From contig NZ_JACDXJ010000003.1 of the NCBI RefSeq assembly GCF_013520865.1, positions 62,001 through 126,000 of the forward strand: 64,000 nt of DNA. Direction: 5' to 3'. This document shows positions 47,701-62,669 of this stretch, piece after piece. Position 1 is the first letter of the stretch, and the number at the start of each line of letters is the position of its first letter. The notes under the pieces were generated by a model, which made no database searches, had not been told where the DNA came from, and saw nothing but the letters and a program-made list of their open reading frames with translations. Source of the DNA: Microvirga mediterraneensis (GTDB lineage Bacteria > Pseudomonadota > Alphaproteobacteria > Rhizobiales > Beijerinckiaceae). The position numbers and the translations under genes were made by a program.

Positions 47701-50338
47701 GCTGCGCTTCCTCGCGGCGCGGCTCCCGGAACGACAGGAGATCGCTGATCGGAGCCAGCGCGCCGAGAAGGATGCAAACAGTATCTCGTCGGACCTTCGC
47801 GAGCTCCTCTCTTCCTTGAAGAGCGGACCGACCCCGCTGTTCGGAGTGGCTTCCGACGGTGCCATGCCTCTGTCGGGCCTATCGGACCGGCTCGGGCTCT
47901 GGCTTGCAAATACCGAGCAGCTTTCCAAGTGGGTGTCGTATCGCGAGCGCGCGGATCGCGGCCACGCATTGGGTCTCGGCAACATCATCGACCATCTCGC
48001 CGACGGCAGGCTTGAGACCGCTGCCGCACATGCGACTTTCGAGATGGCGTACTATGAGGCCATACTGGCGGAGTTCGTGGCGAAGGAGCCGGATCTCGGC
48101 CGGTTCGACGGCAACCTCCATGGCCGGCTCGCCCGGGAGTTCGCGAACCTCGATCGGGAGCGCATCAAGGCGGCGAGCTTGGAAGTCGTGCGTGCCCATC
48201 ATCGCCGGATCCCATCGCGTGACGGTGGAGTAGGCCCCGTCGGGGTCCTTCGGGCGGAGATGGCCCGCCGGCGCGGCCACATGCCGATCCGCCAGCTCAT
48301 GCAAAGGGCCGGTCCCGCTGTTCAGGCTTTGAAGCCCGTCCTGATGATGAGCCCGTTGTCCGTCGCGCAATTCCTGACACCCGGGCGCATGACTTTCGAC
48401 CTCCTCGTCATGGACGAGGCCAGTCAGATTCAGCCCGTCGACGCACTCGGTGCGATCGCGCGGTGCCGGCAAGTCGTTGTCGTCGGGGACGAGCGGCAGC
48501 TCCCACCAACGAAGTTCTTCGCGAAGATGACCGGGGGGCAGGCTGAGGATGATGACGGCGAGGGCGCTCAGGTCGCGGACATCGAGAGCATCCTTGGACT
48601 ATTCTCGGCAAGAGGTCTTCCCCAGCGCATGCTGCGCTGGCACTACCGCAGCCGGCATCAGTCTCTGATCGCGGTCTCAAACAGCCAGTTCTACGAGAAC
48701 AAACTCTTCATCGTGCCCAGCCCCTACACCCAGGAAGCTGGGATGGGATTGCGGTTCCACCACGTTCCCAACGGCATTTTTGACTCTGGAGGGACCGGGA
48801 CGAATGCGATCGAGGCGCGGACCGTAGCCGAGGCGATCATCCGGCATGCCAAGAGCCATCCCGGCCTTTCCCTCGGCGTGGCGACCTTCTCGGTGTCTCA
48901 GCGCCGAGCCATTCAGGATGAACTCGAGATCCTCAGGCGGCTCAATCCCGACACCGAAGACTTCTTCCACGCCCATCCGAGCGAGCCGTTCTTCGTGAAG
49001 AATCTCGAAAACGTGCAGGGTGATGAGCGCGATGTGATCATGATCTCGGTGGGCTATGCCAGGAATGCCCAGGGCTACATGGCCATGCGCTTCGGTCCAT
49101 TGGGTGCCGACGGAGGCGAGCGCCGGCTGAACGTCCTGATCAGCCGTGCGAAGCGGCGCTGCGAGGTGTTCTCCTCCATTACGGACGAGGACATCGATCT
49201 TGAACGGGCAAAGGGCAAGGGCGTCTTCGCGTTCAAGCTCTTCCTGCATTACGCCCGTACCGGCCGTCTCTCGGTGGCGCAGACGAGCGGGCGAGAGGCG
49301 GACAGCGTCTTCGAGGAGCAGGTCGCGAGCGCGCTCCAGGCGCGCGGTTACCAAGTCCATCCGCAGGTTGGCATTGCCGGCTTCTTCATCGACCTCGCAA
49401 TCGCGGACCCGGAGCGTCCCGGCAGATACCTCATTGGCATCGAATGTGATGGTGCGGCCTACCACAGTTCGAGGTCGGCCCGGGACCGCGACAGATTGCG
49501 TCAGGCGGTCCTGGAGGATCACGGGTGGATCATTCACCGGATCTGGAGCACCGACTGGTTCCAGCGGCCACAGGAGCAGTTGGAGCGCACCATCGCGGCA
49601 ATCGAGGCTGCCAAAGTCGAACTCGACGAACGCATTGAACTCGGCGCCCGTCGCCATCGCGCGGTACCCGTGGAGGTTGTGACAGTCGAGCGGGCAGACG
49701 TAACCGAAATCGGTCTGGTCGATGTTGTAGAGGATGGGCTCGCCGAGCGACTCTACGTCGAGGCAACGCCTTCCCGACCCGGGACATACGAACTGCACGA
49801 GACGCCTGTCGGGATCATGGCTGACCTGGTCGATCAGGTGGTCAAGGTGGAAACTCCTGTCCACATCGACGAGGTGGTCACGCGACTGAGAGGCGCCTGG
49901 AACCTGCAACGGGCTGGAGCAAGGATCCAGGCTGCTGTCGAAGAGGGTGTGAAACTGGCCGTCTCACGGGGACGTATCGAGCGGAAGGGACCATTCCTGT
50001 TCCTCCCGGAAGCGGACACGAGACTTCGCGACCGACGGAACGTGATGTCACCTGGGTTGCGCAAGCCCGAGATGATCTCACCAAGTGAGATTGCTGTCGG
50101 TGTCGTTCAGGTTGTGACGACGAACCTCGGAGCGACCGATGAGGAGATTGCCCTGAGCATCTCGCGCCTTCTCGGCTTCAAAGCGACTAGCGCACAACTC
50201 AAAGCGATCATCGGCCAAGTGGTTGATGGACTTCTTATTGAGGGGAAGCTGGTTCGAGACGGAGTTATGCTGACCCTGGCGTCGTCCGCAACAGAAGTGG
50301 GAGCCCCGCGAGCAGCCGAACAACTTGTCCCCGGGTAA
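44747..50338 (+). CDS. Giant SF1 helicase with DUF4011, Vsr-like nuclease and DUF3320 domains
   Basis: 1863 residues. Order of parts: N-terminal DUF4011 (LDLSARNRLLNIPR near residue 28); helicase Walker A GPPGTGKSQTIANVIA near residue 338; a long coiled-coil-rich insertion (about 400-1130); Walker B-type LLVMDEASQIQPVDALG near 1220 with VVGDERQLPPTKFF; ENVQGDERDVIMISVGYA and RRLNVLISRAKRRCEVF near 1463 (motifs V-VI). A Vsr/PD-(D/E)XK-type domain (IGIECDGAAYHSSRSARDRD near 1564, with WIIHRIWSTDWF) follows. A DUF3320-like region (residues about 1670-1790) ends it. Proteins of this build are COG1112-type Upf1-like helicases found in bacterial defence islands. It probably unwinds and cleaves invading nucleic acid; the target is unknown. 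Confidence 0.9.
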   Translation: MSLVEEASVFQSNLPLETKLDRARMELLDLSARNRLLNIPRFSKSAKTIEIVDEKSSEIFRLLVRDGKAFTFVPGREDRDGAEEEDPSSVELTQPEETDEIDERGVSRRHADTKLQTRMTPKGLQKRLLDLYYDARTLEEEQGVNILFLALGTLKWIDPNNKDNIRYAPLILLPVSLDRGTAGEKFRLRWRQEDPASNLSLEAYLDRVHALKLPEFEPGDDLDPAAYIAEVADAVSTKREWSVNPDDVVLGFFSFAKFLMYRDLDPESWPADSKLTEQPLIRGLLADGFSARDELLSEDVNIDAHISPSEMLHIVDSDGSQTLAVHDVRKGRNLVIQGPPGTGKSQTIANVIASAVADGKTVLFVAEKMAALEVVKRRLDQAGVGDACLELHSNKANKRILLEELRRTWDLGSPRGEFPGSLTGRLVEARDVLNGHATRLHRRHAPSELSPYQVLGHLVRLRQAGQRPVDLTLDGPTTWSPDDLSERRRILHELVQRVEDIGLPARHPWHGVGLDMILPTTLERLVPRIEGLKARTDALRVEIGELARTLEHPDPGTFDDIVPLRELADVLAAAPTLSADALAASVWDEHADGIRGLVALGFDFERRSRELAPSVPAEALQTSVDGLEAQLAWLPQDFPASAFDRMRRLADLLPRLWTDAERLKRELGATGEVDTFAAVSRLVSMGERVAAAPDASPEAFAAAIWDQGVEQAGDLTDAVAVLETVRAQVGDRLLDVAWNTDVAAARQALAMHTGLFRYFSGDWRKAKALVRTIVRTPDMPAPELIELLDQLMKGQAAAKAIRDGDAFGRSAFGADWRGERSASAPLGALVAWMRTLRGLGAEPRLIAGRLAERSEVRERSAQLQRVLDEISPLLKSLWSDLGSVAPAAFDGAASIEHVNLGIVDGRVRALVAADDLSRQVLRTMPERLPERLELIRSLFAWQQVARALAERGDLGRSAFGEAWNGIFSDWERLSAAVDWITRHGSLRFLAARLPERQEIADRSQRAEKDANSISSDLRELLSSLKSGPTPLFGVASDGAMPLSGLSDRLGLWLANTEQLSKWVSYRERADRGHALGLGNIIDHLADGRLETAAAHATFEMAYYEAILAEFVAKEPDLGRFDGNLHGRLAREFANLDRERIKAASLEVVRAHHRRIPSRDGGVGPVGVLRAEMARRRGHMPIRQLMQRAGPAVQALKPVLMMSPLSVAQFLTPGRMTFDLLVMDEASQIQPVDALGAIARCRQVVVVGDERQLPPTKFFAKMTGGQAEDDDGEGAQVADIESILGLFSARGLPQRMLRWHYRSRHQSLIAVSNSQFYENKLFIVPSPYTQEAGMGLRFHHVPNGIFDSGGTGTNAIEARTVAEAIIRHAKSHPGLSLGVATFSVSQRRAIQDELEILRRLNPDTEDFFHAHPSEPFFVKNLENVQGDERDVIMISVGYARNAQGYMAMRFGPLGADGGERRLNVLISRAKRRCEVFSSITDEDIDLERAKGKGVFAFKLFLHYARTGRLSVAQTSGREADSVFEEQVASALQARGYQVHPQVGIAGFFIDLAIADPERPGRYLIGIECDGAAYHSSRSARDRDRLRQAVLEDHGWIIHRIWSTDWFQRPQEQLERTIAAIEAAKVELDERIELGARRHRAVPVEVVTVERADVTEIGLVDVVEDGLAERLYVEATPSRPGTYELHETPVGIMADLVDQVVKVETPVHIDEVVTRLRGAWNLQRAGARIQAAVEEGVKLAVSRGRIERKGPFLFLPEADTRLRDRRNVMSPGLRKPEMISPSEIAVGVVQVVTTNLGATDEEIALSISRLLGFKATSAQLKAIIGQVVDGLLIEGKLVRDGVMLTLASSATEVGAPRAAEQLVPG

Positions 50339-50613: not shown

Positions 50614-51849
50614 GTGAACTTCTCCTTTCTGCATGCTGCTGACCTTCACCTCGGCAGCCCTCTGCTTGGCCTTTCGGTCAAGGATCCCGAGATTGCACGG
50701 CGCTTCGCCTCTGCCAGCCGGGAGGCGTTCCGTTCCCTGATCGACCAAGCAATCAGCGCGAAGGTGGCTTTCGCCGTCATTGCGGGGGACATCTACGATG
50801 GCGAGTGGAAGGACAATACTGTCGGGCTGTTCTTTAACCGGGAGATCTCCCGGCTGACCCGCGAAGGGATTCCAGTCTACGTCGTCAAAGGCAACCACGA
50901 TGCGGAAAGTGTCGTCACCAAGACGATGCCGAAACCCGAGGGGGTGACCGTCTTCGGCACCAGGAAGGCGGAGACCCACCGCATTGAGCACCTGAAGGTC
51001 GCAGTTCATGGCTGGAGCTATGAGGACCGCGCGACCGCGGCCGACTTTAGCCTCAGATACCCGGCCCCGGTGCCGGGCTGGTTCAACATCGGTGTCCTGC
51101 ACTCCTCGTGCGAGGGCAAGTCGGCGCATGCCACCTACGCTCCGTGCACGGTTCAGGAACTGGCGGCCCATGAATACCAGTACTGGGCGCTCGGTCACAT
51201 TCATGAGCACAGAGTGCTCAGCCAGAACCCTTGGATGGTCTACCCGGGGAATCTGCAAGGCAGGAGTGTCCGTGAATGCGGGGCGAAGGGCGCGGTGATT
51301 GTGGAAGTCAGGGATGGGGAGGTCCGCACGGTCGAAAGGGTCATTGTGGACAGCGCCCGGTGGGCAGCAATCGCTGTCGATGTTTCGAGCCTTGCAACTG
51401 ATGCCGAAATTGCAGCTGCCATCCGCAGGGAAGCCGAGAGCGCTACCGCTGACCTCGGTGAGCGCCTTCTCGCCTTGCGCATCACACTCACGGGTGAAAC
51501 CCCCTTGCATGACCATCTGAGGGCTGCGGGCGGCACGTTGCGCGACGAGTTGCAGGCGGTGCTCCATCACATTCACGAGGATATATGGTTCGAGAAGCTG
51601 GAGATCCGGACCTCGGCTCCGGCGGTGCCGAAGAGGGACCAGTTGGGTGGTCTGGACCCCGTCGCGATGCTCGCAGGCCTCTCCGATGACGCGGAACTGC
51701 GGCAGTCAGCTCACGAGATTGTGGGCGCATTGCTGGAAAAGCTTCCGCAGTCGTTCGCGGGGACTCCGGAACTGAACGACTTGGACATACTGATAGCTGA
51801 GGCGCAAAGCCTCGTCGTGGCACGGGCCATGGCTGGAAAGGCAGCTTGA
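50614..51849 (+). CDS. YhaO/SbcD-like metallophosphoesterase (DNA repair exonuclease)
   Basis: 411 residues from GTG 50614. Calcineurin-type phosphoesterase motifs are in order: LHAADLHLGSPL (D, H), VIAGDIYDG (D), VVKGNHDAES (NH), VLHSSCEGK (H) and ALGHIHEHRV (GHxH). These bind the two metal ions of Mre11/SbcD nucleases. The C-terminal 120 residues would contact the ATPase partner, encoded three bases downstream. It is likely the nuclease subunit of a YhaON-type complex. It lies 275 bases after the helicase gene on the same strand. Confidence 0.88.
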   Translation: MNFSFLHAADLHLGSPLLGLSVKDPEIARRFASASREAFRSLIDQAISAKVAFAVIAGDIYDGEWKDNTVGLFFNREISRLTREGIPVYVVKGNHDAESVVTKTMPKPEGVTVFGTRKAETHRIEHLKVAVHGWSYEDRATAADFSLRYPAPVPGWFNIGVLHSSCEGKSAHATYAPCTVQELAAHEYQYWALGHIHEHRVLSQNPWMVYPGNLQGRSVRECGAKGAVIVEVRDGEVRTVERVIVDSARWAAIAVDVSSLATDAEIAAAIRREAESATADLGERLLALRITLTGETPLHDHLRAAGGTLRDELQAVLHHIHEDIWFEKLEIRTSAPAVPKRDQLGGLDPVAMLAGLSDDAELRQSAHEIVGALLEKLPQSFAGTPELNDLDILIAEAQSLVVARAMAGKAA

Positions 51850-51852
51850 TCG

Positions 51853-54800
51853 ATGCGACTGCGTAGTCTTGATCTCGAACGCTACGGCTCCTTCACCAGC
51901 AAGCGCTTGACCTTTAGGACCGACGCACTCCTGCATGTCGTCTACGGACCGAATGAGGCAGGCAAGAGCACGTGCCTGTCCGCTATCGCGGACCTGCTGT
52001 TTGGTTTCCAGAAGAGTACCGCCTTCGGCTTCCTGCACGACAGCAAGGACCTTCTCATCGGCGCCACCGTGGCGCGGGAGGATGGTGCTGCGCTGCCGTT
52101 CAGGCGCCGCAAGGGATACAAGCGCACACTCATTGATGCACACGGCGAGGAACTTGCAGACGATGCACTTGCCCCGTTCCTTGGAGGCATCGGCCGTGAG
52201 GTCTTCCTGCGCGCTTTCGGCCTAAACGCGGCGACCCTCCGCGCAAGCGCGAAGGAACTGGGCGACAGCGATGGCGACCTCGCGACGGCATTGTTTACAG
52301 CGGCTTCCGGCCTGCGCGGATTTTCCGACATTCGCTCCCAATTGGACGCAGATGCGGCCAAATTGTTCGCCCCTCGCGCCAGGGACCGTCGCCTGCACCA
52401 AGCGCTTGGTCAGTATGAGGCTGCCCGCAAGACGATCAAGGACAAGGAGCTTCGCAGCAGCGACTACAAGGCGATCCTCTCGGAAATTGCCAGCGCCGAG
52501 GCGCGCCTGCACGAAATCAGTGAGCTAAAGGCCAACGGCATCGCGGAGCTCGCTCGGCTCAAGCGGCTCAAGGCTGCACAACCCCTTATCCGCCAGATTG
52601 ATACTGAGATCGAGCGTTTGGAGGGCTTCAGAGCACTCCCGCAGATCAGCAATGTCACCTTGAGGGAGCTCGAGACGGCTCTCGACCAGCATGACGAGGC
52701 GATCCGAGACTTGGAGAAGTCACGCCTTGAAGAGCGGGAGATCGAGCTGGAGCACGACAGCATTCGCGTCGATGACGCGCTTGTTGCCCAATCAGCCAGG
52801 ATCGACGGTTTGTATTCCCGCATCGAGGCCTATCGCCTGGCGCTGCGCGACCGCCCGAGGGTCCAGGCCGAGGCGTCTAGGCTGGAAGCGGATCTCGCTG
52901 ATCTAGGCGCGAGGCTCGGCTGCGGACCTGCGAAGGACCTCGCTGAAGGGCGTCCAACGGATGCCGGGCTGGCCCGGGTCCAGGAACTCATGGATCAAGG
53001 CCGCTCCTTGCTGGAACGGCTGACCACAACTCGAGACACTTTGAGCGCGGAGGAAGCCACACTTAAGGCCCACGCCGGACGCCGCGCCCAAACTGATGCG
53101 CCCGTCGATCCGGCTCCATTCCGCAGTCGCATGGCCGCCCTGAAACCCGACCTCAAGAAGGTCGAGAGCGGTAGGGCAGCGGCCGAGACGCTTGCAAGGG
53201 ATATCCGTACCCTCCGCGAGGAAGCGGCTCGTCTGAGGCCTTCGATTGACAATCTGGAGGCGCTTGCCGCCGCTCCGCTACCGTCTACCGAGGACATCGA
53301 GCGTTATCGCTCTACCCTGGATGAGCTCGCCGCGCGTTCGGCGCAGAAAACCGATCGGGTCAGGTCGTGTGAGGCAGGAGTCGAACAACTCCGGGCTCAG
53401 CTCACCACGCTTCGTCGGGAGGGGGACGTGCCCACGCGGGAGCGACTGGATGCCGCGAGGACGGAGCGCTGGGAGGCATGGAGTCTGATTCGCTCCGCGT
53501 TGTTCGGCGAGCGGGCACTTCAGGCAGAGAAAGTTGCCGAACGTGTCTCCCGGTTCGAGCAACTCGTATCCGACGCCGATCGACTGGCGGACGACATCGC
53601 CGCCGATGCCGAGCGGGACTTTGCGATAGCGGATCTCAATCGCAGGCTGGAACAGGAAACCACAAAGGGAGCCGAGCTTGCCCGCGGTTTGGAAGAGATC
53701 GAGCGCGCACGTGCGTCCGGGTTGGCCGGGTGGGAGGAGCTTTGGTCTCCCACCGGCGTCGTTCCGCTTGAGCCGAGGGACATGAAATCCTGGCGCAGCG
53801 CGGTGACCTCGCTTCTGGAGCGCCGAGATACCCTCCGTGAGAGACATGACGAACAGGCTGCCATTGAGGAGCACGGCCGCGCGCTGCTGGTGCCATTGAA
53901 CGGACTCGCGAGCGAGCTCAGGCTCGCACCCTATGAGGGGGCGGATGTCCTGATCATGGCCCGGTACGTGGAGGAGGCGATCGAGGCTCTGGCCAGGAAC
54001 TGGGCGGAGGCCCGGGAGGACGAAGCACTCCTTGCAGAGACCCGAAGACGAATAGGGGACCTCCAACAGGCTCAGGAGCAGGGCGAGCAGGCTTGCGCGG
54101 AATGGCGGGTGTGCTTCGATAGAGCGGTGGCGGCAATCGGCCTGAAGCCGGGTGCGTCGCTGGCCGAAGCTGCGGCCGCCAGCGCCGCATGGCAGCGGCT
54201 GCCCAGCCTTCAGAAGGAACTCGACAGCCTCCGCAAGCGCGTCCGCGGAATGGAGCGGGATACGATCGGGCCGTTTGAGAGCGAGGCGCGGGCGGTCATT
54301 ACCGCCCTGGCTCCGGACCTGACCTCGCTTCCTCTCGACAGCGCGGTGAAGGAGCTCCAAGCTCGCGTCGGCGAGGCGAAGAAGGCCAGAGTTCTCCGTG
54401 AGGACCTAGGCATGCGGCTCACCCGTGCACGCGCCAAAGTTCGCACCACGGGTGAAGTCCGCGAGCGCGTGCAGAAAGCACTGGCGGAAGCAGCGTCTGC
54501 GGTGGATCAGCCGGCCGAAGCGGACCTGAGATCGCTGATTGGTGATATCAAGGCCCGTTCGGAGATCGAGGCTTTGCTCCGAGGACTTCGCCAGCAGCTA
54601 GGCGCAGCTACGGAGCAGCATAGCGAAGCAGAGTTGCGGGCAGCGCTCACCGATTTCGATGCTGATCGTGCCGAGGCTGAGCTCATTCGGCTTACCGAAG
54701 CGAACACCCAACTCGACCAGGAAGGCAAGGAGGTCTACGCCGTCAGAGATCGGCACCAAACACGCTTGGCCGAAATCGAAGGCGGCGTTGGCGCCGAGGA

Positions 54801-55374
54801 GGCCCACCAGATGCGCCACGTTGCCGAGGCCGAGATTGCGGAGACCGCGAGGGAATACCTAGTCCACAAGCTGGGCTCTCTCCTGATCGGTGCCGCCCTT
54901 GCCCGGCATCATGCGAAGAACCAGAGCCCCTTGATGACGAGAGCGGGTATTCTGTTCAATGCGCTGACCGCCGGAGCATTCACTGGCCTGGAGCAAGCAA
55001 TCGGGGATGATGACGTTCCCCGCCTCATTGCCCGGCGCGCTTCCGGGACAACGCTCACCACAGGCGAGATGAGCGAGGGAACTGTCGACCAACTCTATCT
55101 TGCACTGCGTCTTGCCTACCTACAGGACTACGCATCGAGGGCCGAGGCTGTCCCCTTCATCGGCGATGATCTGTTCGCGACGTTCGATGATGAGCGGGCA
55201 GGTCATGGTCTGGAGACCTTGGCGAGTTTCGGTCTCGCCGTACAGCCGATCCTGTTCACGCACCATTCCCACATCGTTGAGATCGCACGGAGGCGGCTTG
55301 GGTCAAAGGTTGACGTAGTGGACCTCAGCGACGTTCAGCTAGCCGCTCCAGCACGGGTCGCCCTAGCTGGCTAA
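51853..55374 (+). CDS. YhaN/SbcC-like AAA ATPase
   Basis: 1173 residues. The N-terminal ABC head has Walker A YGPNEAGKST (residues 31-40) and the YhaN-type beginning MRLRSLDLERYGSFTSKRLT. Two long coiled-coil arms (about 170-520 and 560-960) enclose a hinge. The C-terminal head closes with MTRAGILFNALTAGAFTGLE, LSEGTVDQLYLA-type signature (TTGEMSEGTVDQLYLALRLA), Walker B FIGDDLFATFDDER and the switch FTHHSHIV. With the YhaO-like protein it should form an SMC-type DNA-end-processing complex. The gene begins three bases after the yhaO stop. Confidence 0.9.
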   Translation: MRLRSLDLERYGSFTSKRLTFRTDALLHVVYGPNEAGKSTCLSAIADLLFGFQKSTAFGFLHDSKDLLIGATVAREDGAALPFRRRKGYKRTLIDAHGEELADDALAPFLGGIGREVFLRAFGLNAATLRASAKELGDSDGDLATALFTAASGLRGFSDIRSQLDADAAKLFAPRARDRRLHQALGQYEAARKTIKDKELRSSDYKAILSEIASAEARLHEISELKANGIAELARLKRLKAAQPLIRQIDTEIERLEGFRALPQISNVTLRELETALDQHDEAIRDLEKSRLEEREIELEHDSIRVDDALVAQSARIDGLYSRIEAYRLALRDRPRVQAEASRLEADLADLGARLGCGPAKDLAEGRPTDAGLARVQELMDQGRSLLERLTTTRDTLSAEEATLKAHAGRRAQTDAPVDPAPFRSRMAALKPDLKKVESGRAAAETLARDIRTLREEAARLRPSIDNLEALAAAPLPSTEDIERYRSTLDELAARSAQKTDRVRSCEAGVEQLRAQLTTLRREGDVPTRERLDAARTERWEAWSLIRSALFGERALQAEKVAERVSRFEQLVSDADRLADDIAADAERDFAIADLNRRLEQETTKGAELARGLEEIERARASGLAGWEELWSPTGVVPLEPRDMKSWRSAVTSLLERRDTLRERHDEQAAIEEHGRALLVPLNGLASELRLAPYEGADVLIMARYVEEAIEALARNWAEAREDEALLAETRRRIGDLQQAQEQGEQACAEWRVCFDRAVAAIGLKPGASLAEAAAASAAWQRLPSLQKELDSLRKRVRGMERDTIGPFESEARAVITALAPDLTSLPLDSAVKELQARVGEAKKARVLREDLGMRLTRARAKVRTTGEVRERVQKALAEAASAVDQPAEADLRSLIGDIKARSEIEALLRGLRQQLGAATEQHSEAELRAALTDFDADRAEAELIRLTEANTQLDQEGKEVYAVRDRHQTRLAEIEGGVGAEEAHQMRHVAEAEIAETAREYLVHKLGSLLIGAALARHHAKNQSPLMTRAGILFNALTAGAFTGLEQAIGDDDVPRLIARRASGTTLTTGEMSEGTVDQLYLALRLAYLQDYASRAEAVPFIGDDLFATFDDERAGHGLETLASFGLAVQPILFTHHSHIVEIARRRLGSKVDVVDLSDVQLAAPARVALAG

Positions 55375-55481: not shown

Positions 55482-56429
55482 CTACGACATCTTGCGTCCC
55501 ACCGATGTAGCGGCCATGGTGGCCTGCGGGCGTTTCCAATAGCCTAAAGTCAACGCCTCATGGCGGTTGAAGAAGGTTTCAAAGTAAAAGATGTGTCCAT
55601 CCCCATTCCGGTCTTGGAGAACCACTTCCTCCTGACCGAGGCTGCCGCCCTGTTGAGCCCCGGAGTAGCCAGCGATGACCTCGAAGAGCTGACGTTCCGA
55701 AATTCCGCCGAACTGTTCCCGGAACGGGGGCGACTCGACGCAATAACGACAGGGGTTCGCGGCGTCGAAGTCGGGTTTGCGTCGGGAGGGGTGCGGGTGG
55801 CCGGTGACGAGTGCGACCATGGGGCGATTGCCGTGGGCCTGCTCCGCAAACCGCCAAAGGGTAGACGTTAGCGTGTTGCCGAATCCCTTGCTCAAGGCCT
55901 TGACCAACTCGAGTCCCGGAGCCGACGCGGCTGCCTCGGCCCGGAAGCGATCGGCTAGAAAGAGGAGCTGACCAGCGGCGTAGTTGGCTTCGGCCTCCAT
56001 GATCTCGTGGCAGGCTGGGGAAAGAGTCTGCTCGGTGTCGCCGAACATCATGCCAGCATGCCAGGGAATAAGGTCGTGGCCGATTTCGTGGGCCTCGTTC
56101 CAACGGTGCTTGAGCTGGGGAAGGTCCTTGTCGAGCAGGATCCGCTTCTGGTCTGGGAGATAGAGCGCCTTGAGGTTCAAGGAGCGGACGGCATCCAGGA
56201 GGATGGTCGGCCGCAGGAGAACCTGCTGCCCGGCGACCTTCAGGCGGGACAAGGTCTCCCGCAAAATCCCATCGTCCGTCGTGCTGTAGTAGTCCCGATC
56301 AAGCTTGAGGAGTTCCCGGACGACGCGCAGATCGATCGGCGGCTCAGGATTGCCCAATCCCTTGAGGACCTTGGCGACCTGTCCGTCGATGTCAGCGATC
56401 GTGCGTGCCCCAAGCCTGACGTTTCTCAC
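55482..56429 (-). CDS. ImmA/IrrE-type zinc metallopeptidase
   Basis: 315 residues from GTG 56429, overlapping the XRE stop by four bases. The zinc motif is HEIGHD (in RWNEAHEIGHDLIPWHAG, near residue 115), and EIMEAEANYAAGQLLF supplies the third ligand Glu. Residues 1-200 are the COG2856 domain; an extra C-terminal region (from about 205) contains HPHPSRRKPDF and CRYCVE and has no assigned role. Such peptidases cleave an adjacent XRE regulator, as in ImmA-ImmR and the CapP-CapH pair of CBASS loci. The substrate is probably the protein encoded just upstream. Confidence 0.85.
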   Translation of the reverse strand: MRNVRLGARTIADIDGQVAKVLKGLGNPEPPIDLRVVRELLKLDRDYYSTTDDGILRETLSRLKVAGQQVLLRPTILLDAVRSLNLKALYLPDQKRILLDKDLPQLKHRWNEAHEIGHDLIPWHAGMMFGDTEQTLSPACHEIMEAEANYAAGQLLFLADRFRAEAAASAPGLELVKALSKGFGNTLTSTLWRFAEQAHGNRPMVALVTGHPHPSRRKPDFDAANPCRYCVESPPFREQFGGISERQLFEVIAGYSGAQQGGSLGQEEVVLQDRNGDGHIFYFETFFNRHEALTLGYWKRPQATMAATSVGRKMS

Positions 56430-56935
56430 TTCACCCGTTTCGGCTCCTGTTCGCTCAGGACGGCCACGAACGCCTCCAAAGCCGAGCTCTCCTCCGGCGT
56501 CAGCTTTTGCACGGATTCGGATCGCGCTGCAAATCGAACGGCTTCCTGACGCAAGCCAGCATCATTGGCCGCGGCTAGCCCGGCCAGTTGCATGAGGCGC
56601 CGTTGCGGCACCTCAAAGGTCTGTGCAAGCTTGAATACAGTCCGTGGCTCAGGAACGTGATGAACATCATCCTCGATCACGAGCAACTCGCTTGGGTCGA
56701 TATCCGCCGCCTCCGCCAGCTGCTCCATCGAGTAGCCGTGGCGCCGGCGCATCAGGTTCACGAACTTTCCGAAAGCGATACGGGTCTCTTCGATAGCGGC
56801 GGTCGGTGCGATCGACGGACGCCCTTCCGGCGCCGGATCGAACGCGAGTTGACCGGCGCCGACGGCTGCGTCGCCTTCACGGCGCGCCCGAGCCATCCAC
56901 CAATCTTTGCTCCGCTCCAATCTCATCGTCCTCAC
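56426..56935 (-). CDS. XRE family transcriptional regulator paired with the peptidase
   Basis: 169 residues from GTG 56935; this start is favoured because it gives the same 4-nt overlap (GTGA) as the other junctions of the operon, with GAGGAGG just before it. The helix-turn-helix lies at residues 52-110: FGKFVNLMRRRHGYSMEQLA, DIDPSELLVIEDDVHHVPEP. A 50-residue N-terminal extension and a C-terminal helical part (LTPEESSALEAFVAVLSEQE) flank it. It is a likely repressor and likely substrate of the ImmA-type peptidase that overlaps its end. Confidence 0.83.
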   Translation of the reverse strand: MRTMRLERSKDWWMARARREGDAAVGAGQLAFDPAPEGRPSIAPTAAIEETRIAFGKFVNLMRRRHGYSMEQLAEAADIDPSELLVIEDDVHHVPEPRTVFKLAQTFEVPQRRLMQLAGLAAANDAGLRQEAVRFAARSESVQKLTPEESSALEAFVAVLSEQEPKRVK

Positions 56936-57555
56936 TCCTCCTCGAGGAACGCGCGAGCCTGCTCGGCAGTCATCTCGAAGTATGTTAGATTCTGGTAGGC
57001 TTGGTCTGCTCCTAGATCAGTCATCCCGCATCTCCGCCGGTAGAAATCCTCTGCCTGCGGCAGCGAGTGGAGCCCGATCCGGCCCTTGAACCCCTCGTCC
57101 TCGCTCAAAGCAACCGCTGCCGTAACGAGCGCGGTGCCGACGCCGCGCAGGCGCGGCATGGACCCAAGCTCCGGTCGGTTCCAGGGGGCCACCTCAAGGT
57201 AATCTATGTACACGAGCGGCTTACCTGCCTGACTTGGCCCCCGGCAGGACTTCGTCAGGTCGATCTGCGCCAAGCCCTGCGTCTCGCCTTGCGCGACGAC
57301 GCTGAACCCGCGGAAGGCCAGCAGGCCCTGGACCTGGGCCGTCTTCTGCGCCCAGTTCCAGTGCCAGCTCTGCGGCCACTGACCCATGGGCACCCCTTTG
57401 CGGGCGAGTTCCTGCAAGACCGCGAACAGCTCAGGCTGCCACTTGGTCTGCCAGTCGTCGAGCTGCGCCTGCTCGATCGCGTCGCGCAGCTCGGCTTCGA
57501 CGCTATCCCCCGTCGCGACGTCTTGAAGATAGATGGTCAAGACCTGGACCGTCAT
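56932..57555 (-). CDS. GNAT family acetyltransferase
   Basis: 207 residues from ATG 57555 (ATGA overlap with the RHH gene). The acetyl-CoA-binding loop appears as LRGVGTALVTAAVALSEDEG, a QxxGxG/A variant, after VYIDYLEVAPWN (strand 4). FYRRRCGMTDLG completes the fold. The N-terminal 90 residues are an added helical, Trp-rich part (GQWPQSWHWNWAQK) not seen in small GNAT toxins. With the RHH gene upstream it could be a toxin-antitoxin pair, but GNAT toxins are usually near 170 residues. It could also acetylate a defence component. Confidence 0.8.
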   Translation of the reverse strand: MTVQVLTIYLQDVATGDSVEAELRDAIEQAQLDDWQTKWQPELFAVLQELARKGVPMGQWPQSWHWNWAQKTAQVQGLLAFRGFSVVAQGETQGLAQIDLTKSCRGPSQAGKPLVYIDYLEVAPWNRPELGSMPRLRGVGTALVTAAVALSEDEGFKGRIGLHSLPQAEDFYRRRCGMTDLGADQAYQNLTYFEMTAEQARAFLEEE

Positions 57556-57764
57556 AGGAGCATCAGCTCCGCCTTCTCCTTGGTCGCCTCGTTCTCAAAA
57601 AGGAGTTTCTCGCCCTTTTCAACCCGCGCCTCGACCGTCTGGTACAGGCGCAGCGCCTGCCGGAGCACGGCGGTCTTAGAGATGTCCTTGCGGGCCGACA
57701 GGTCGTCGAGGGCCCGCATCTCAGCGTCGGTGAGGTTGAGCGTCATGGTGCGCTTTGCCGTCAT
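57552..57764 (-). CDS. Ribbon-helix-helix regulator or antitoxin
   Basis: 70 residues from ATG 57764 (GGAGG six bases before); the frame also opens at 57803. RTMTLNLTDAEMRALDDLSA followed by ISKTAVLRQALRLYQTVE is a clear strand-helix-helix. The tail is Glu/Lys-rich and could bind a partner. First gene of the operon RHH-GNAT-XRE-ImmA, divergent from the CBASS genes and 117 bases or more from their start. It may bind the dyad at 57819-57832. Confidence 0.75.
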   Translation of the reverse strand: MTAKRTMTLNLTDAEMRALDDLSARKDISKTAVLRQALRLYQTVEARVEKGEKLLFENEATKEKAELMLL

Positions 57765-57921
57765 CTCATCCTCCGTCCTTCTGCCCTCATATACGAAATT
57801 CAAAGGTTAATGTCAACGTTCCATAGCTGGAATAAGCATATTGAATAGCTAAAAAATAGCCATTATATGATGGTGGCAAGAGCCGCCGACACCGGATCGC
57901 CGGCTGACAGGAGTTGAGGCT
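57765..57921. promoter_or_regulatory. Divergent control region between the RHH operon and CBASS
   Basis: AT-rich compared with its surroundings. For CBASS, TTGAAT at 57841-57846 and TATATG at 57864-57869 are 17 bases apart, and AGGAG lies before the ATG at 57922. The palindrome TTCCATAGCTGGAA (57819-57832) is just upstream of that -35, well placed for a regulator bound by the RHH or XRE protein. A second small repeat, ATAGCTA with AATAGCC, overlaps the spacer. Confidence 0.55.
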
Positions 57922-58887
57922 ATGGGGCGGCAGCATATAGGCCACGATGAGATCGCCGCCTTCGCGCAGGACAAGGTGAACCTGCCGAAGGAGAAGGCTG
58001 ATGAATACCGGGCGCAAGCGCGCCGTCTGCGTGAGAAGCTGGAGGGCTACCTCAATGAGCACCCGGACTTCACGCTCAAGAAGATGATGCTTTCAGGGAG
58101 CCTCGCTAAAGGAACGGCGCTCCGGTCGCTCAACGACATCGATGTCGCCTGCTACATCAGCGGCGCCGAGGCCCCCCACGACATCCGGGCGTTGCTCGAC
58201 TATCTCGCCGAGCGCCTGCGCAAGGCCTTCCCGAACTTCAGCGCGGATCAGGTCAAGCCGCAGACCTACTCCGTCACGGTCTCGTTCCGGGGCACCGGTC
58301 TCGACGTCGATGTCGTGCCGATCCTCTATGACGGCAACTCGCAGTGGTACGGCAATCTCGTCAGCCAGGATGATGGCTCGTTCCTGAAAACGAGCATTCC
58401 GCTCCACCTCGAGTTCGCGGGGAAGAGGAAGCGCTGCCAGGAAAAACACTTCGCGCAGGTCGTCCGGCTCGCCAAGTTCTGGGCGCGCCGCATGAAGCAG
58501 GAGCGTGACGGCTTCCGCTTCAAGTCGTTCATGATCGAGATGGTGCTGGCGAAGTTGTGTGACGACGGGCTCGACTTCTCCGACTATCCCGAGGCGCTCC
58601 AACACTTTTTCACCTACATCGCACGGAGCGATTTCCGCGAGCGGATCGTTTTTCCCGACTATTACCGGCCCTCGTCGGTAGGAGCGTTGACGGATACGGT
58701 GCAGATCATCGATCCGGTGAACGCCCAAAACAATGTCGCCCGCCTATACACGGCGGCCAATGCGGACGCGATCGTTGACGCTGCTCTGGACGCAGGCGAC
58801 GCGATCGACGCAGCCCTCGCCGCCCCAACCAAGCAGCTGACCGTTGCCTACTGGCAGAAGGTCCTCGGCTCATCGTTCCACGCGTGA
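57922..58887 (+). CDS. CBASS CD-NTase (cyclic oligonucleotide synthase)
   Basis: 321 residues. The nucleotidyltransferase core shows GSLAKGTALRSLNDIDVACY: GS at 59-60 and metal-binding Asp72 and Asp74. The third acidic site is in LDVDVVPILYDG (Asp128/130). A helical C-terminal domain follows, with HFAQVVRLAKFWARRMKQ. All catalytic residues are present, so an active enzyme making a cyclic nucleotide second messenger is expected. HORMA and TRIP13 genes downstream place it in a type III CBASS operon, where HORMA binding activates the synthase. The exact cyclic product cannot be deduced. Confidence 0.88.
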   Translation: MGRQHIGHDEIAAFAQDKVNLPKEKADEYRAQARRLREKLEGYLNEHPDFTLKKMMLSGSLAKGTALRSLNDIDVACYISGAEAPHDIRALLDYLAERLRKAFPNFSADQVKPQTYSVTVSFRGTGLDVDVVPILYDGNSQWYGNLVSQDDGSFLKTSIPLHLEFAGKRKRCQEKHFAQVVRLAKFWARRMKQERDGFRFKSFMIEMVLAKLCDDGLDFSDYPEALQHFFTYIARSDFRERIVFPDYYRPSSVGALTDTVQIIDPVNAQNNVARLYTAANADAIVDAALDAGDAIDAALAAPTKQLTVAYWQKVLGSSFHA

Positions 58888-58896
58888 GGACCGGCA

Positions 58897-59412
58897 GTGT
58901 CTTATAGCTACAGCTACACCGAAAGCTCGACGTTCACCATTACGCATGCGCGCCACATGGCGGCGAAGGTTGCGACAGACCTGAAGCGCATGCAGCGCCT
59001 TTACGGGCACCCGTCTGACAGAGAAATTGCCGACTATGAGGCAGAAGTCATAGAACTCCTGAAAGCCGGCTATCTCGGCACAGTCACCTACGGGTTCCGG
59101 CGCGACGGCAACTGGATCGAACCGACTCTACGCTATACGGCGCACGATCTCGCAGGCGGGTCGGCCAACGACGACGATCCAGGCAAGATCCGCCCGGGCG
59201 CGGATGTCGCCGGTGCCGTCTTTTACAACTATCTGACATACAGCGCCGCCTGGGATCTGCTGCCCTCGGAGGAAAAGGACGCCTTCAAGAAGCGCATGCC
59301 CTTCTATCGCACCGGTGCGCCTGAGCCTGGAATCACGGGCTATCTCACGGACGACCGCACGTACTCTTCAGGCGGTCGCGCCCTCAACCGTTCGAGCGTA
59401 CGGAGTTACTGA
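58897..59412 (+). CDS. CBASS bacterial HORMA domain protein (family 1, Cap7-like)
   Basis: 171 residues from GTG 58897, with GAGGA six bases upstream. SYTESSTFTITHARHMAAKV, ATDLKRMQRLYGHPSDREIA and VTYGFRRDGNWIEPTLRYTA match the bacterial HORMA family found beside CD-NTases. In known systems the HORMA protein senses a peptide ligand, closes around it and activates the CD-NTase; the C-terminal safety-belt region here ends GYLTDDRTYSSGGRALNRSS. Its TGA overlaps the ATG of the ATPase gene (TGATG). Confidence 0.82.
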   Translation: MSYSYSYTESSTFTITHARHMAAKVATDLKRMQRLYGHPSDREIADYEAEVIELLKAGYLGTVTYGFRRDGNWIEPTLRYTAHDLAGGSANDDDPGKIRPGADVAGAVFYNYLTYSAAWDLLPSEEKDAFKKRMPFYRTGAPEPGITGYLTDDRTYSSGGRALNRSSVRSY

Positions 59413-60353
59413 TGAACACGAAGCCCTCCCTCGACGAGCTCTTTGAGCGTCGGGTCACCTATCCGGATTTCGAGCCGCAAGGCCGGCTTGCGCGCCTTGT
59501 AGGGCTCGATGAGCAAAAGAGCCGGCTCACCAAGATCCTTGGCCTTCTCGTCAACCCCGGCGGCCTTGAGGCCTGGGCCAAGCGTTATCATCCCGAGTCG
59601 CAACAGGTTCTCGACACGGTCCTGCGCCGCCCACCCTTGGTGGTCCTAGCCGGTGACGTCGGGTCCGGCAAGACCGAACTCGCTGAAACCATTGGTGATG
59701 CGGTCGCGCGCCAGGAAGACATCGACATCACGCTCTTCCCGTTGAGTCTCTCGACGCGCGGTCAGGGCCGGGTCGGCGAAATGACCCAGCTGCTGACGGC
59801 AGCCTTTGACTACACCATTGCCGAGGCGACACGGCTGAAGTCAGCCAGTGGGCGGTCGCGCGGCGCGGTTATCCTGCTCGTCGACGAGGCCGATGCGCTC
59901 GCCCAGTCCCGCGAGGCCGCGCAAATGCATCATGAGGATCGTGCCGGGGTGAATGCCTTTATCCGCGGCATTGATCGCATCGCTAATGCAAAGCTCCCCG
60001 CCGCGGTCATTATGTGCACGAACCGCTTGAGCGCGCTTGATCCTGCGGTTCGCCGCCGCGCCGCTGAGGTACTGAGCTTCGCACGGCCGGACGACGAGCA
60101 GCGCCGTTTCGTGCTTTCGAGCCGTCTTGAGGCCTTCGGAATCGGTCGTCATCATGTCGACGCGCTTGTGTCCGCTACCGGGCCTCAACGCGGGATCCGC
60201 GAGCACGGATTTACGTTTTCCGACCTGACGCAGCGCCTCCTGCCGGCGATTGTGCTCGATGCCTATCCTTCACGCGCCGTTGACGGGTCGCGTGCCGTCG
60301 ACATCGCACTCGAGATAGTGCCGACACCTCCGTTCCGCGATGCCAGCAACTGA
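59412..60353 (+). CDS. CBASS TRIP13/Pch2-like AAA+ ATPase (Cap6-like)
   Basis: 313 residues. Walker A is VVLAGDVGSGKTELAET (residues 81-88 carry the P-loop), Walker B is AVILLVDEADALAQSREA (residues 152-162), and IMCTNRLSALDPAVRRRAAE supplies sensor and arginine-finger positions. TRIP13-type ATPases pull on the N-terminus of HORMA proteins and open them, turning signalling off. It is translationally coupled to the HORMA gene. Confidence 0.88.
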   Translation: MNTKPSLDELFERRVTYPDFEPQGRLARLVGLDEQKSRLTKILGLLVNPGGLEAWAKRYHPESQQVLDTVLRRPPLVVLAGDVGSGKTELAETIGDAVARQEDIDITLFPLSLSTRGQGRVGEMTQLLTAAFDYTIAEATRLKSASGRSRGAVILLVDEADALAQSREAAQMHHEDRAGVNAFIRGIDRIANAKLPAAVIMCTNRLSALDPAVRRRAAEVLSFARPDDEQRRFVLSSRLEAFGIGRHHVDALVSATGPQRGIREHGFTFSDLTQRLLPAIVLDAYPSRAVDGSRAVDIALEIVPTPPFRDASN

Positions 60354-60362
60354 AGCCCGTCC

Positions 60363-61904
60363 ATGACCCAGGCCGTGACCGTGCGCCGTGATGGCGACAC
60401 CTTCCAAGCCCGCCTGTTCTGGTGGCATGCCGCACGGCTGCTCGACCCCGGGAGCCCCATCATCCGGGTCGGGTTCGAGAACGGGCCCAAGAGCTTCGAT
60501 GACATCTGGGTCGAGTACGACCCGAAGCGGAGCGCGCAGGACCAATACGGCGCGCCCCTCCGGCGCGAGCACGTTCAATGCAAGTGGCATGTTTCTCCGG
60601 ACACCTATGGCTACAGCCACCTGATCGACCCTGAATTCATCAATGCGAACACGCGCTCGCTCTTGCAGCGAGCTCGCGACGCCCAGCTCGCGTACGCGCC
60701 TGACGGCATTGGTGTCCGCTTTAAGCTCCTCACCAACTGGCGGCTCGATCGAGCTGATCCCCTACGCCAGATGATCGGGACACGCTCGGGTGCCATACGG
60801 CTGGAGCGGCTCTACGGTTCCGCTACGGACAACAGCAAGGCGGGAGCTGTCCGAAAGGCATGGCGTGACCATCTCGGACTGGATGAGGAGGAACTGAGGG
60901 TCCTTGCGCGCACCCTGGCGTTCGGCGAGGCCACGGACACACTCGACGGCCTTCGAGACAACCTCGACGTCTTGTTCGCCTATGTCGGATTGCGCCGCAT
61001 TCCAAGGAACGAGAGCGCGTTCCCCTATGATGACGTGGTGTTCCAGTGGATGGCGCAAGACCGGCTTGAGTTCGACCGCAAAAGCTTCCCGGCGATCTGT
61101 GACCGCGACGGCCTCCTGGGACAAGGCGAAGGCCGCCGCCACGTCTATGGAGTGAAGTCGTTCGAGCATCCGATCGACCGGCTGGAGGAGCGCTGCCACC
61201 AAGTCCTCGACCTGATCCCCGCTTTCGACGAACGCTACATCCGCAGCGAGGCGGATTGGGGGGATGCACTCTACCCGGCACTGCGAGCATTTTTGCTCTC
61301 CGCTGCGCGGGATCAGTCTAAGTTGCGACTCGCATTGGACGCACACGCCACCTTGGCCTTCGCCGCAGGTTCGGTGCTGAACATCAAGTCTGGCCGGCAT
61401 GTGGAGTTGGAGCAACGCACCACGGGAGAACGAATCTGGGCGGCCGACGATTTCCCTCCTGATGTCAATTGGGCCAGCTTAGAGGCAGAAGTCGTCGAAC
61501 TCGACCCTCAACGTCCTGATCTGGCCATCGCGGTGAGCCTCACCCACGACATCGCGCCAGATGTGCGGCGTTATCTCAGCGCTACCGTTCCCACGGTCGG
61601 GCGATTGCTCATGCTGACGCCCAGCACGGGGCCTGGCGCCCAGTCCGTCGCATGCGGGCGACATGCCTTCGAACTCGCGGAGGCCGCCACCCGGATGGTC
61701 AGGGAAGCACGTGGCTCGAGCCCAGTGGCGGCAGTGCACCTGTTCGTCGCGGCGCCCAATGGCTTCACCTTCTTCCTCGGTCAGCGTCAGCCGGTACTCG
61801 GCCCCGTCCGACTCTACGAGTTCGATTTCGAGGGAGGGAGGGACAGATCCTACACACCGAGCCTAACTCTGCCGATTTCGACCCGGACCGGTGATCCTGT
61901 GTAA
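60363..61904 (+). CDS. CBASS effector: nuclease-like domain fused to SAVED (Cap4-like)
   Basis: 513 residues. The N-terminal part contains FDDIWVEYDPK and REHVQCKWHVSPD, where Asp46/47 and QxK at 72-74 fit a PD-(D/E)XK-type nuclease core like that of Cap4. The C-terminal half (from about residue 310) is a SAVED ligand-binding domain: LAIAVSLTHDIAPDVRRYLS, CGRHAFELAEAATRMVREAR, AVHLFVAAPNGFTFFLGQ and GPVRLYEFDFEGG. SAVED binds the cyclic nucleotide, after which the nuclease degrades DNA, killing the infected cell. Last gene of the CBASS operon, nine bases after the ATPase gene. Confidence 0.87.
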   Translation: MTQAVTVRRDGDTFQARLFWWHAARLLDPGSPIIRVGFENGPKSFDDIWVEYDPKRSAQDQYGAPLRREHVQCKWHVSPDTYGYSHLIDPEFINANTRSLLQRARDAQLAYAPDGIGVRFKLLTNWRLDRADPLRQMIGTRSGAIRLERLYGSATDNSKAGAVRKAWRDHLGLDEEELRVLARTLAFGEATDTLDGLRDNLDVLFAYVGLRRIPRNESAFPYDDVVFQWMAQDRLEFDRKSFPAICDRDGLLGQGEGRRHVYGVKSFEHPIDRLEERCHQVLDLIPAFDERYIRSEADWGDALYPALRAFLLSAARDQSKLRLALDAHATLAFAAGSVLNIKSGRHVELEQRTTGERIWAADDFPPDVNWASLEAEVVELDPQRPDLAIAVSLTHDIAPDVRRYLSATVPTVGRLLMLTPSTGPGAQSVACGRHAFELAEAATRMVREARGSSPVAAVHLFVAAPNGFTFFLGQRQPVLGPVRLYEFDFEGGRDRSYTPSLTLPISTRTGDPV

Positions 61905-61955: not shown

Positions 61956-62669
61956 CTAGCTTACCTTTGCTTCGACGATGCGGAGCAGATGACTGGCGAC
62001 AATCAGCATCTCGGCTGCTTCTTGAGGATCTCTGAGGTCAGTCCTGCGATGGCTTCGGGGATTCTTGAAGTAACCGACTGCGCCCGCTGCAAAAAACTGC
62101 AGAGCTTCGCGTTCTCCTTCCGGCTCTTCCATGTCGGCGAGCGGACCACTTCGCTTATCGAAGGCTTTCATCACAAGTGGCCTGCCGTGTTCGCTCTCTC
62201 CGGCCTCGGCAGCCTCTCGAATGGCGATCTCAACAGTTTTGAAGGCTTCGAAGACAGCCGCCTCATAGTGACCGGTGTTGAAAATGTCCAGGCATGTTCT
62301 CCGTATGCTCGGGTGCAACATGAAATCAGGTAAGATCTCCCGAAGCCGCATGATGTTGAGTGTCTCGCGAGTGAAGGAGCGCCCTGCTCGCGAAAGCTGA
62401 AAGAAGCTGCGCGACTGCTCGATATCCGGAACTATGAGGAGCATCCGCCTCGCCCAAGCGAGTGCCTCCGAGACCACCAGATACAACTCCGTACGCCGGG
62501 AACTCGCCCACTCCGTGCGGTACTCATGAATGATTGCTTGTGGCACAGTCGCATCTTGAGGGTGCGTTTCCTCGTAAGTCTGAAGGTAAAAGACGATCTC
62601 GGAACCGAGATCCTCGGGCGATGCACTCAGCAGGTCGTCCAAGGTTGGAAAGCGCTCGCGAAAGGCCAT
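61956..62669 (-). CDS. TIGR02391 (Ymh-like) family protein
   Basis: 237 residues. The C-terminal domain has the family pattern: LHPSIRRTCLDIFNTGHYEA, AVFEAFKTVEIAIREAAEAG, LVMKAFDKRSGPLADME and AVGYFKNPRSHRRTDL. The N-terminal 110 residues are helical with no assigned domain. TIGR02391 proteins are common in genomic islands, often beside restriction or abortive-infection genes, and resemble HEPN-type folds in length and helix content; the function is not established. Convergent with the CBASS operon, whose stop is 52 bases away. Confidence 0.8.
   Translation of the reverse strand: MAFRERFPTLDDLLSASPEDLGSEIVFYLQTYEETHPQDATVPQAIIHEYRTEWASSRRTELYLVVSEALAWARRMLLIVPDIEQSRSFFQLSRAGRSFTRETLNIMRLREILPDFMLHPSIRRTCLDIFNTGHYEAAVFEAFKTVEIAIREAAEAGESEHGRPLVMKAFDKRSGPLADMEEPEGEREALQFFAAGAVGYFKNPRSHRRTDLRDPQEAAEMLIVASHLLRIVEAKVS

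Follow-up and report, generated by a model that had tools for sequence, protein, structure and literature searches.

A four-gene RHH-GNAT-XRE-ImmA block facing a CBASS operon in Microvirga mediterraneensis: a putative shared switch of bacterial immune operons

What does a block of four genes do that starts back-to-back with an immune operon? In the stretch of Microvirga mediterraneensis DNA analysed here (64,000 bp, positions 62,001 to 126,000 of contig NZ_JACDXJ010000003.1; hereafter the window, in whose numbering coordinates are given), a cyclic oligonucleotide-based antiphage signalling system (CBASS) lies divergently to genes for a ribbon-helix-helix (RHH) protein, a GCN5-related N-acetyltransferase (GNAT), an XRE-family helix-turn-helix (HTH) protein, and an ImmA/IrrE metallopeptidase. 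After our analysis, this block has the appearance of a bacterial immunity switch that has not been described so far, akin to the Cap controllers, and we give its reading as a mobile controller of immune operons, with the mechanism taken as a whole, a probability of roughly 0.6. For the operator the evidence is strong, whereas what the GNAT and the XRE-ImmA pair do is inferred.

Gene block and operator array

The block occupies the minus strand from 57764 to 55482 in the order RHH, GNAT, XRE, ImmA. The initial annotation had described an overlap of 4 nt at each of the three junctions and a back-to-back position to CBASS, with which both open reading frame (ORF) coordinates and domain profiles agreed.

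57552..57764, minus strand: RHH protein (CopG-type), 70 aa; RHH_1 22.1 bits against a cut-off of 20.5 (Pfam)
56932..57555, minus strand: GNAT-family acetyltransferase, 207 aa; Pfam scores slightly below cut-offs
56426..56935, minus strand: XRE-family HTH protein; HTH_19 6.4e-14
55482..56429, minus strand: ImmA/IrrE (M78) metallopeptidase with CapP/PprI-like fold; Pfam Peptidase_M78

The RHH ORF was first called as 57552-57803 with a TTG start (83 aa). From the sequence, a start at ATG 57764 fits better, because the TTG at 57803 would precede the predicted -10 element of the operon itself, GGAGG (57774-57770) precedes the ATG, and relatives agree.

Related loci were collected by GNAT similarity (the 80 best loci from genomes, supplemented by plasmid loci), and the ORFs of 105 records, labelled L002 and the like below, were annotated with profiles built for this analysis, leading to 70 complete distinct blocks after removal of duplicates and one truncated copy. 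Among these, the 4-nt overlap was frequent but not strict, being possible at the RHH-GNAT junction in 57, at GNAT-XRE in 45, and at XRE-ImmA in 21 copies.

Between block and payload, upstream of RHH, we identified tandem TRGCYA boxes with a period of 11 bp, which in the window are arranged together with two predicted promoters as follows.

57857..57862, unstranded: operator box 1, TAGCCA; within the predicted CBASS -35/-10 spacer
57846..57851, unstranded: operator box 2, TAGCTA; one 11-bp period away from box 1 and sharing the last base of the predicted CBASS -35
57824..57829, unstranded: operator register position 4, TAGCTG (5 of 6 bases); 22 bp from box 2
57841..57869, plus strand: predicted CBASS promoter, by eye; TTGAAT 57841-57846, 17-bp spacer, TATATG 57864-57869
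57788..57816, minus strand: predicted RHH-operon promoter, by eye; TTGACA 57816-57811, 17-bp spacer, TATATG 57793-57788

At register position 3 (57835-57840, AGCATA), the window shows no recognisable box. Since a sigma-70 consensus scanner run over 57700-57960 found no promoter, the evidence for both predicted promoters is visual inspection together with conservation. Elements similar to the RHH-operon promoter occur in many relatives, and in 63 aligned arrays the payload-strand columns of TTGAA (-35) keep their base in 37-59 and those of TATAT (-10) in 37-55. As these conserved columns flank the box pair, the pair falls into the -35/-10 spacer of the promoter predicted for the payload. The dyad TTCCATAGCTGGAA (57819-57832), initially singled out as an element of its own, had to be rejected as a free-standing dyad, since it overlaps TAGCTG (57824-57829), register position 4 of the TRGCYA array.

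The strict 11-bp box pair was present in 63 of 80 distinct upstream regions, while about 0.03 were expected in total from shuffled sequences. Broken down by payload, it was found for CBASS in 23/24, Bub in 33/37, JAB/Bil in 1/2, TIR in 1/1, MBL in 0/1, and regions without a recognised divergent payload in 5/15. Random windows of the same loci, which could overlap the operator itself, contained the pair in 51 of 4000 cases, and at least one TAGCTA was present in 12 of the 17 regions lacking the pair. Spacings between consecutive TAGCTA boxes (n=55) were 11 bp in 40 cases, 22 bp in 6, 33 bp in 3, 44 bp in 2, and other in 4. With the stricter pattern WTRGCYAWNNNWTRGCYAW, a single site was detected in the 5.35-Mb genome, namely at this locus, and the reversed control matched nowhere.

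The boxes follow the RHH gene. In L074, which carries only RHH and GNAT, the strict pair is present, and L078, which is built likewise, has one TAGCTA. The pair is also present in L114, where RHH faces a Bub operon without GNAT, XRE, or ImmA. By contrast, scanning the whole loci of six RHH-less CBASS records (L105-L110, cyclases 72-81% identical; 53 plasmid records carry a cyclase but not the block, and these six are among them) gave no box pair in any of them, L108 having a single TAGCCA 218 bp before the cyclase. Because the boxes persist with RHH and GNAT or with RHH alone and the pair is absent from the six RHH-less CBASS loci examined, the sequence data point to RHH as the binder of the TRGCYA boxes. 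Cooperative binding of MetJ/CopG-type RHH dimers on tandem boxes is known. Both the ribbon (MTLNLT) and the C-terminal tail of RHH are kept in relatives. The initial idea of a second repressor thus gains support, as the conserved operator in the divergent region points to RHH as a putative repressor of the payload promoter.

The regulators beside the cyclase in L105-L110 are WYL proteins in three loci and an XRE-ImmA pair in one, with none annotated in two. L105-L107 and L109 combine a related CBASS core under WYL or XRE-ImmA control with a DUF6602 or NucC effector replacing SAVED, so that controller and effector of this core may change together.

Payloads and distribution of the block

The operon divergent from the block in the window is a CBASS, with all four components in one operon.

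57922..58887, plus strand: CBASS CD-NTase (cyclase), payload gene 1; PADLOC Cyclase 7e-148, NCBIfam CBASS_cyclase_a 3.5e-126
58897..59412, plus strand: bacterial HORMA protein, payload gene 2; bacHORMA_1 1e-66
59412..60353, plus strand: TRIP13-like AAA ATPase, payload gene 3; PADLOC TRIP13 1.4e-135
60363..61904, plus strand: SAVED-PDDEXK effector nuclease, payload gene 4; PADLOC Effector 8.5e-218, SAVED_PDDEXK 1.2e-192

The initial annotation regarded the block as a candidate control or sensor module of CBASS. It is indeed conserved next to immune operons, but a CBASS-specific module is rejected, since Bub (ubiquitin-like) operons are faced by 35 of the 70 distinct copies and CBASS by 23, with JAB/Bil-like operons in 2 and no match by profiles in 10. 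The name Bub for the multiubiquitin-ThiF-DUF6527 operons follows PMC13373217 and is our reading of their gene content. Among the ten profile-negative copies, a TIR protein lies opposite the block in L066, a DUF2188 protein in L018, and, in L077, an MBL protein belonging to a candidate defence family, while in L013, L094, L100, and L102 a Bub operon lies tail-to-tail behind ImmA; in L060, L083, and L095 (3/70 copies) no payload was recognised. As to the JAB/Bil-like loci, L019 gave weak matches to BilC (1.4e-12) and BilD (3.3e-09), and L017 harbours a multiubiquitin gene and a JAB-like gene, the latter matched only by a profile built for this analysis. At L013:8428-12073, the tail-to-tail neighbour of the block is a Bub operon that has a divergent XRE-ImmA pair of its own, which places two related controllers in one locus.

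A block lying mostly away from CBASS and unlinked to the divergent promoter had been named as the mark of an independent system. The first half holds true, as Bub outnumbers CBASS in this sample, whereas on the second the sequence points the other way. The boxes are located in the payload promoter in different payload classes, and no second site with the strict pattern exists in the genome; this favours one controller shared by several immune operons over an independent system.

Searches with the GNAT yielded 2092 candidates, 1224 of which were relatives at E<=1e-3; 120 of these relatives were itemised. Profile matches among the 105 records numbered 104 for GNAT, 99 for RHH, 94 for XRE, 89 for ImmA, 33 for cyclase, 51 for ThiF, and 50 for DUF6527. 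On plasmids, GNAT matched 51 records; among the 40 matches listed, 18 were proteobacterial, and these were the same 18 that matched XRE and were all contained in the 19 RHH-matching records. Sixteen of the 18 were examined and revealed Bub (8), CBASS (3), JAB/Bil-like (2), and DUF2188 (2) payloads as well as insertion sequences on the divergent side (1). The other plasmid records among the matches listed were cyanobacterial, with GNATs about 33-40% identical. In four of these (L011, L020, L021, L022; about 35%), no RHH was detected; a gene of about 520-540 bp follows GNAT in all four, and L011 additionally has a DNA methyltransferase gene back-to-back with GNAT and a DISARM drmD gene nearby.

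In the species genomes of GTDB, 146 relatives were obtained out of 179 pattern matches. The best 80 of the 146, which were kept, include Alpha-, Beta-, and Gammaproteobacteria, Gemmatimonadota, Planctomycetes, Myxococcota, one acidobacterium, and one rhodothermal metagenome-assembled genome. Nevertheless, the block is rare: matches occurred in 3 of 61 near relatives, one of them weak (1.8e-4); among the 385 genomes of its class and likewise among the 397 of its order, two matched, the window's own genome included, with GNAT and RHH found in the same genomes. A scan of viral contigs resulted in 17 pattern matches and no relatives. In L002 (same genus) and L065 (Microvirga lupini), GNAT is split and the cyclase ORF is short (268 vs 321 aa), while RHH and an upstream box are kept, as in a decaying copy.

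Frequent free swapping of payloads had to be rejected. On a quick GNAT tree with several long branches, payload labels need 7 changes compared to a shuffled mean of 29.6, and across the 23 CBASS loci cyclase distances correlate with those of RHH, GNAT, XRE, and ImmA (Spearman 0.80-0.88, uncorrected for shared ancestry). Within the block, distance correlations, likewise uncorrected, were 0.79 for GNAT-XRE, 0.73 for GNAT-ImmA, 0.68 for ImmA-XRE, 0.63 for ImmA-RHH, 0.56 for GNAT-RHH, and 0.51 for RHH-XRE. Payload clustering and correlated distances therefore indicate that block and payload have mostly moved as a unit and that the payload type has changed only a few times.

Proposed switch and competing explanations

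In the mechanism that we propose, RHH dimers would sit side by side on the TRGCYA boxes, one helical turn (11 bp) apart, and the main box pair in the -35/-10 spacer would allow RHH to shut off CBASS or, elsewhere, Bub, Bil-like, and TIR operons. Judged from the operator, we regard binding of the boxes and repression of the payload by RHH as highly probable; via the flanking boxes, RHH would probably repress its own operon too.

The second arm would be formed by XRE and ImmA, which the initial annotation had likened to the CapH-CapP scheme. This comparison stands: an XRE HTH gene and an M78 gene lie adjacent to each other at an immune operon, the fold search matched the CapP fold over nearly the full length of ImmA, and the zinc motif HExxH (H114, E115, H118 conserved) is intact in 69/70 copies, the sole miss being a truncated copy. 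By analogy to CapH-CapP and DdrO-PprI, DNA damage (ssDNA) would activate ImmA, leading to cleavage of XRE and relief of control, and a role as damage-sensing arm seems to us rather more probable than not. Besides its HTH, XRE has an N-terminal segment of roughly 45 aa that is conserved (KEWW..A..E....GAG; alignment of 21 sequences). Since the third ORF of the Planctomycetes loci L091:9580-9777 and L088:9542-9790 keeps this segment only (KEWF/EKWF...GAG), the HTH being gone, it may be functional by itself.

For the GNAT, the AlphaFold2 model (predicted local distance difference test score 94) showed a GNAT fold, though the Pfam scores were just below the cut-offs (Acetyltransf_10, 22.6 vs 23.6 bits; Acetyltransf_1, 20.6 vs 20.7 bits). 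Its likeliest role is that of a toxin-like acetyltransferase neutralised by RHH following the logic of TacAT-type toxin-antitoxin (TA) systems, in which case the RHH-GNAT complex would set how tightly RHH holds the promoter; we put the chance of such a toxin-like partnership slightly below even. The fold search did not separate toxin from non-toxin GNATs for this protein. As a tentative extension, the block could be a TA pair turned master switch, in which one RHH both neutralises GNAT and silences the facing immune operon (CBASS, Bub, Bil-like, TIR) via the array. If so, whenever RHH lost control, either upon damage that ImmA-XRE senses or upon host shut-off by a phage, GNAT and immune operon would be freed together, placing two defence layers under one sensor.

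Alternatively, GNAT could be a regulator rather than a toxin, acetylating conserved lysines of RHH or XRE and thereby tuning DNA binding to the level of acetyl-CoA, so that the switch would respond to damage and metabolism. Two RHH lysines, K43 and K77 (counted along the 83-aa ORF), are conserved in no fewer than 69/70 copies, GNAT and RHH tightly co-occur, and the fold matches include the protein acetyltransferases RimL, RimJ, and PatZ. However, RHH proteins commonly contact DNA at positions of the K43 type, which would account for the conservation of K43 without acetylation, and the RHH-only locus L114 retains the operator in the absence of GNAT. We therefore consider this reading doubtful.

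Somewhat less probable still, RHH-GNAT might be an independent TA pair merely travelling with an XRE-ImmA controller, with the boxes serving as its autoregulatory operator only. RHH-GNAT stands alone in L074 and L078, while in L055, L059 (a short contig), and L090 RHH-GNAT-XRE occurs with neither ImmA nor payload detected. Moreover, RHH-GNAT gene pairs were earlier listed as TA-like in PMC2701414, the consulted part of which favoured antibiotic resistance as their role. Against this, the box pair lies inside the predicted payload promoter, with conserved -35/-10 columns around it, at CBASS and Bub loci, and the RHH of L114 has boxes and faces a Bub operon although GNAT, XRE, and ImmA are missing.

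Given the XRE-ImmA pair and the CapP fold of its peptidase, the block might also be CapH-CapP proper with two accessory genes, XRE being the real payload repressor and RHH regulating only itself; XRE plus ImmA beside CBASS or Bub is a scheme known from the consulted part of PMC13373217. This appears improbable, as PADLOC gave capH at 0.0087 only and capP at 1.6e-13 (48.7 bits) over residues 98-201 only, compared to 1.9e-82 (274 bits) for a Thauera peptidase, and as the conserved operator tracks RHH, while inspection of the divergent regions by eye revealed no second conserved operator or XRE-type site. BLASTP comparisons bearing on CapH-CapP membership resulted in 22% identity over 92 aa and 23% over 94 aa. 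Finally, mere adjacency by chance in a defence island, with no functional consequence for the payload, for which other defence-like genes nearby might speak, is highly improbable in view of the operator statistics and the census, in which 63/70 distinct copies have a recognised payload in the divergent position.

Relation to known controllers and neighbouring genes

The control of immune operons, as by CapW, CapH-CapP, and CapK-CapS, is under active study. CapH and CapP, ascribed to Lau 2022, are reportedly the XRE repressor and M78 peptidase of CBASS and Bub operons. The block resembles them in having an HTH protein and an ImmA peptidase beside a payload promoter, and a Thauera CBASS (cyclase 75% identical) carries an XRE-ImmA pair at the block's position; it differs in that its sequences are distant, RHH and GNAT precede the pair as additional genes, the operator follows RHH, and XRE carries an additional N-terminal segment. 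With CapW and CapK-CapS, it shares the character of a mobile controller at promoters of several immune operons (CBASS, Bub, Bil), as far as the consulted part of PMC13373217 describes them, and the WYL genes of L105-L107 occupy the position of the block. Unlike these controllers, its four proteins revealed no GHKL kinase, STAS-wHTH, or WYL domain at E<=0.1 (Pfam).

In RHH-GNAT type II TA pairs, the RHH gene precedes and overlaps the GNAT gene, as it does in the block. TacA and AtaR antitoxins are of the DUF1778 type. In comparison to TacAT, AtaRT, and KacAT, the RHH of the block had RHH_1 as its sole Pfam match and no DUF1778 match at E<=0.1, its GNAT profile gave no match to PDB chains at E<=0.1, and the pair, with a GNAT of putative toxicity, is accompanied by XRE-ImmA and an immune operon. 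From IrrE/PprI-DdrO of Deinococcus, the block differs in being operon-local and accompanied by RHH and GNAT, and cleavage would here be a matter of analogy.

According to the consulted parts of PMC12839542 and PMC10853773, GNATs occur in BREX-related and Dnd systems, but not as an RHH-GNAT-XRE-ImmA block. Neither acetyltransferase nor RHH or ribbon-helix-helix occurs in the main text of PMC13373217, and acetyltransferase does not occur in PMC1779556. Among the matches listed in our literature searches, RHH-GNAT-XRE-ImmA with CBASS or Bub was undescribed, though the CapH-CapP paper or two Bub papers may mention it. The consulted part of PMC13373217 assigns CapW or CapH-CapP to 219 of 544 Bub operons and CapK-CapS to 59; because the last two genes of the block resemble CapH-CapP, some of the 219 may actually carry the block. 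The block would represent a further controller class, the only one met here that combines an RHH operator with an acetyltransferase, and its compact, genome-unique strict operator together with natural deletions (RHH only, RHH-GNAT only) makes the mechanism directly testable.

Apart from CBASS, the window harbours a metallophosphoesterase and AAA_27 ATPase pair (SbcD/SbcC-like, 50614-55374, plus strand) tail-to-tail with ImmA, and a related pair is located likewise in L012 and L064, which have Bub payloads. Further away, at 44747-50338 (plus strand), a defence-like helicase-nuclease of 1863 aa with DUF4011, AAA, REase_MTES_1575, and DUF3320 domains is encoded. Directly past the CBASS operon lies a gene for a Hypoth_ymh protein (61956-62669, minus strand) with a weak Aga_HEPN match, of which a matching fragment is present in L065.

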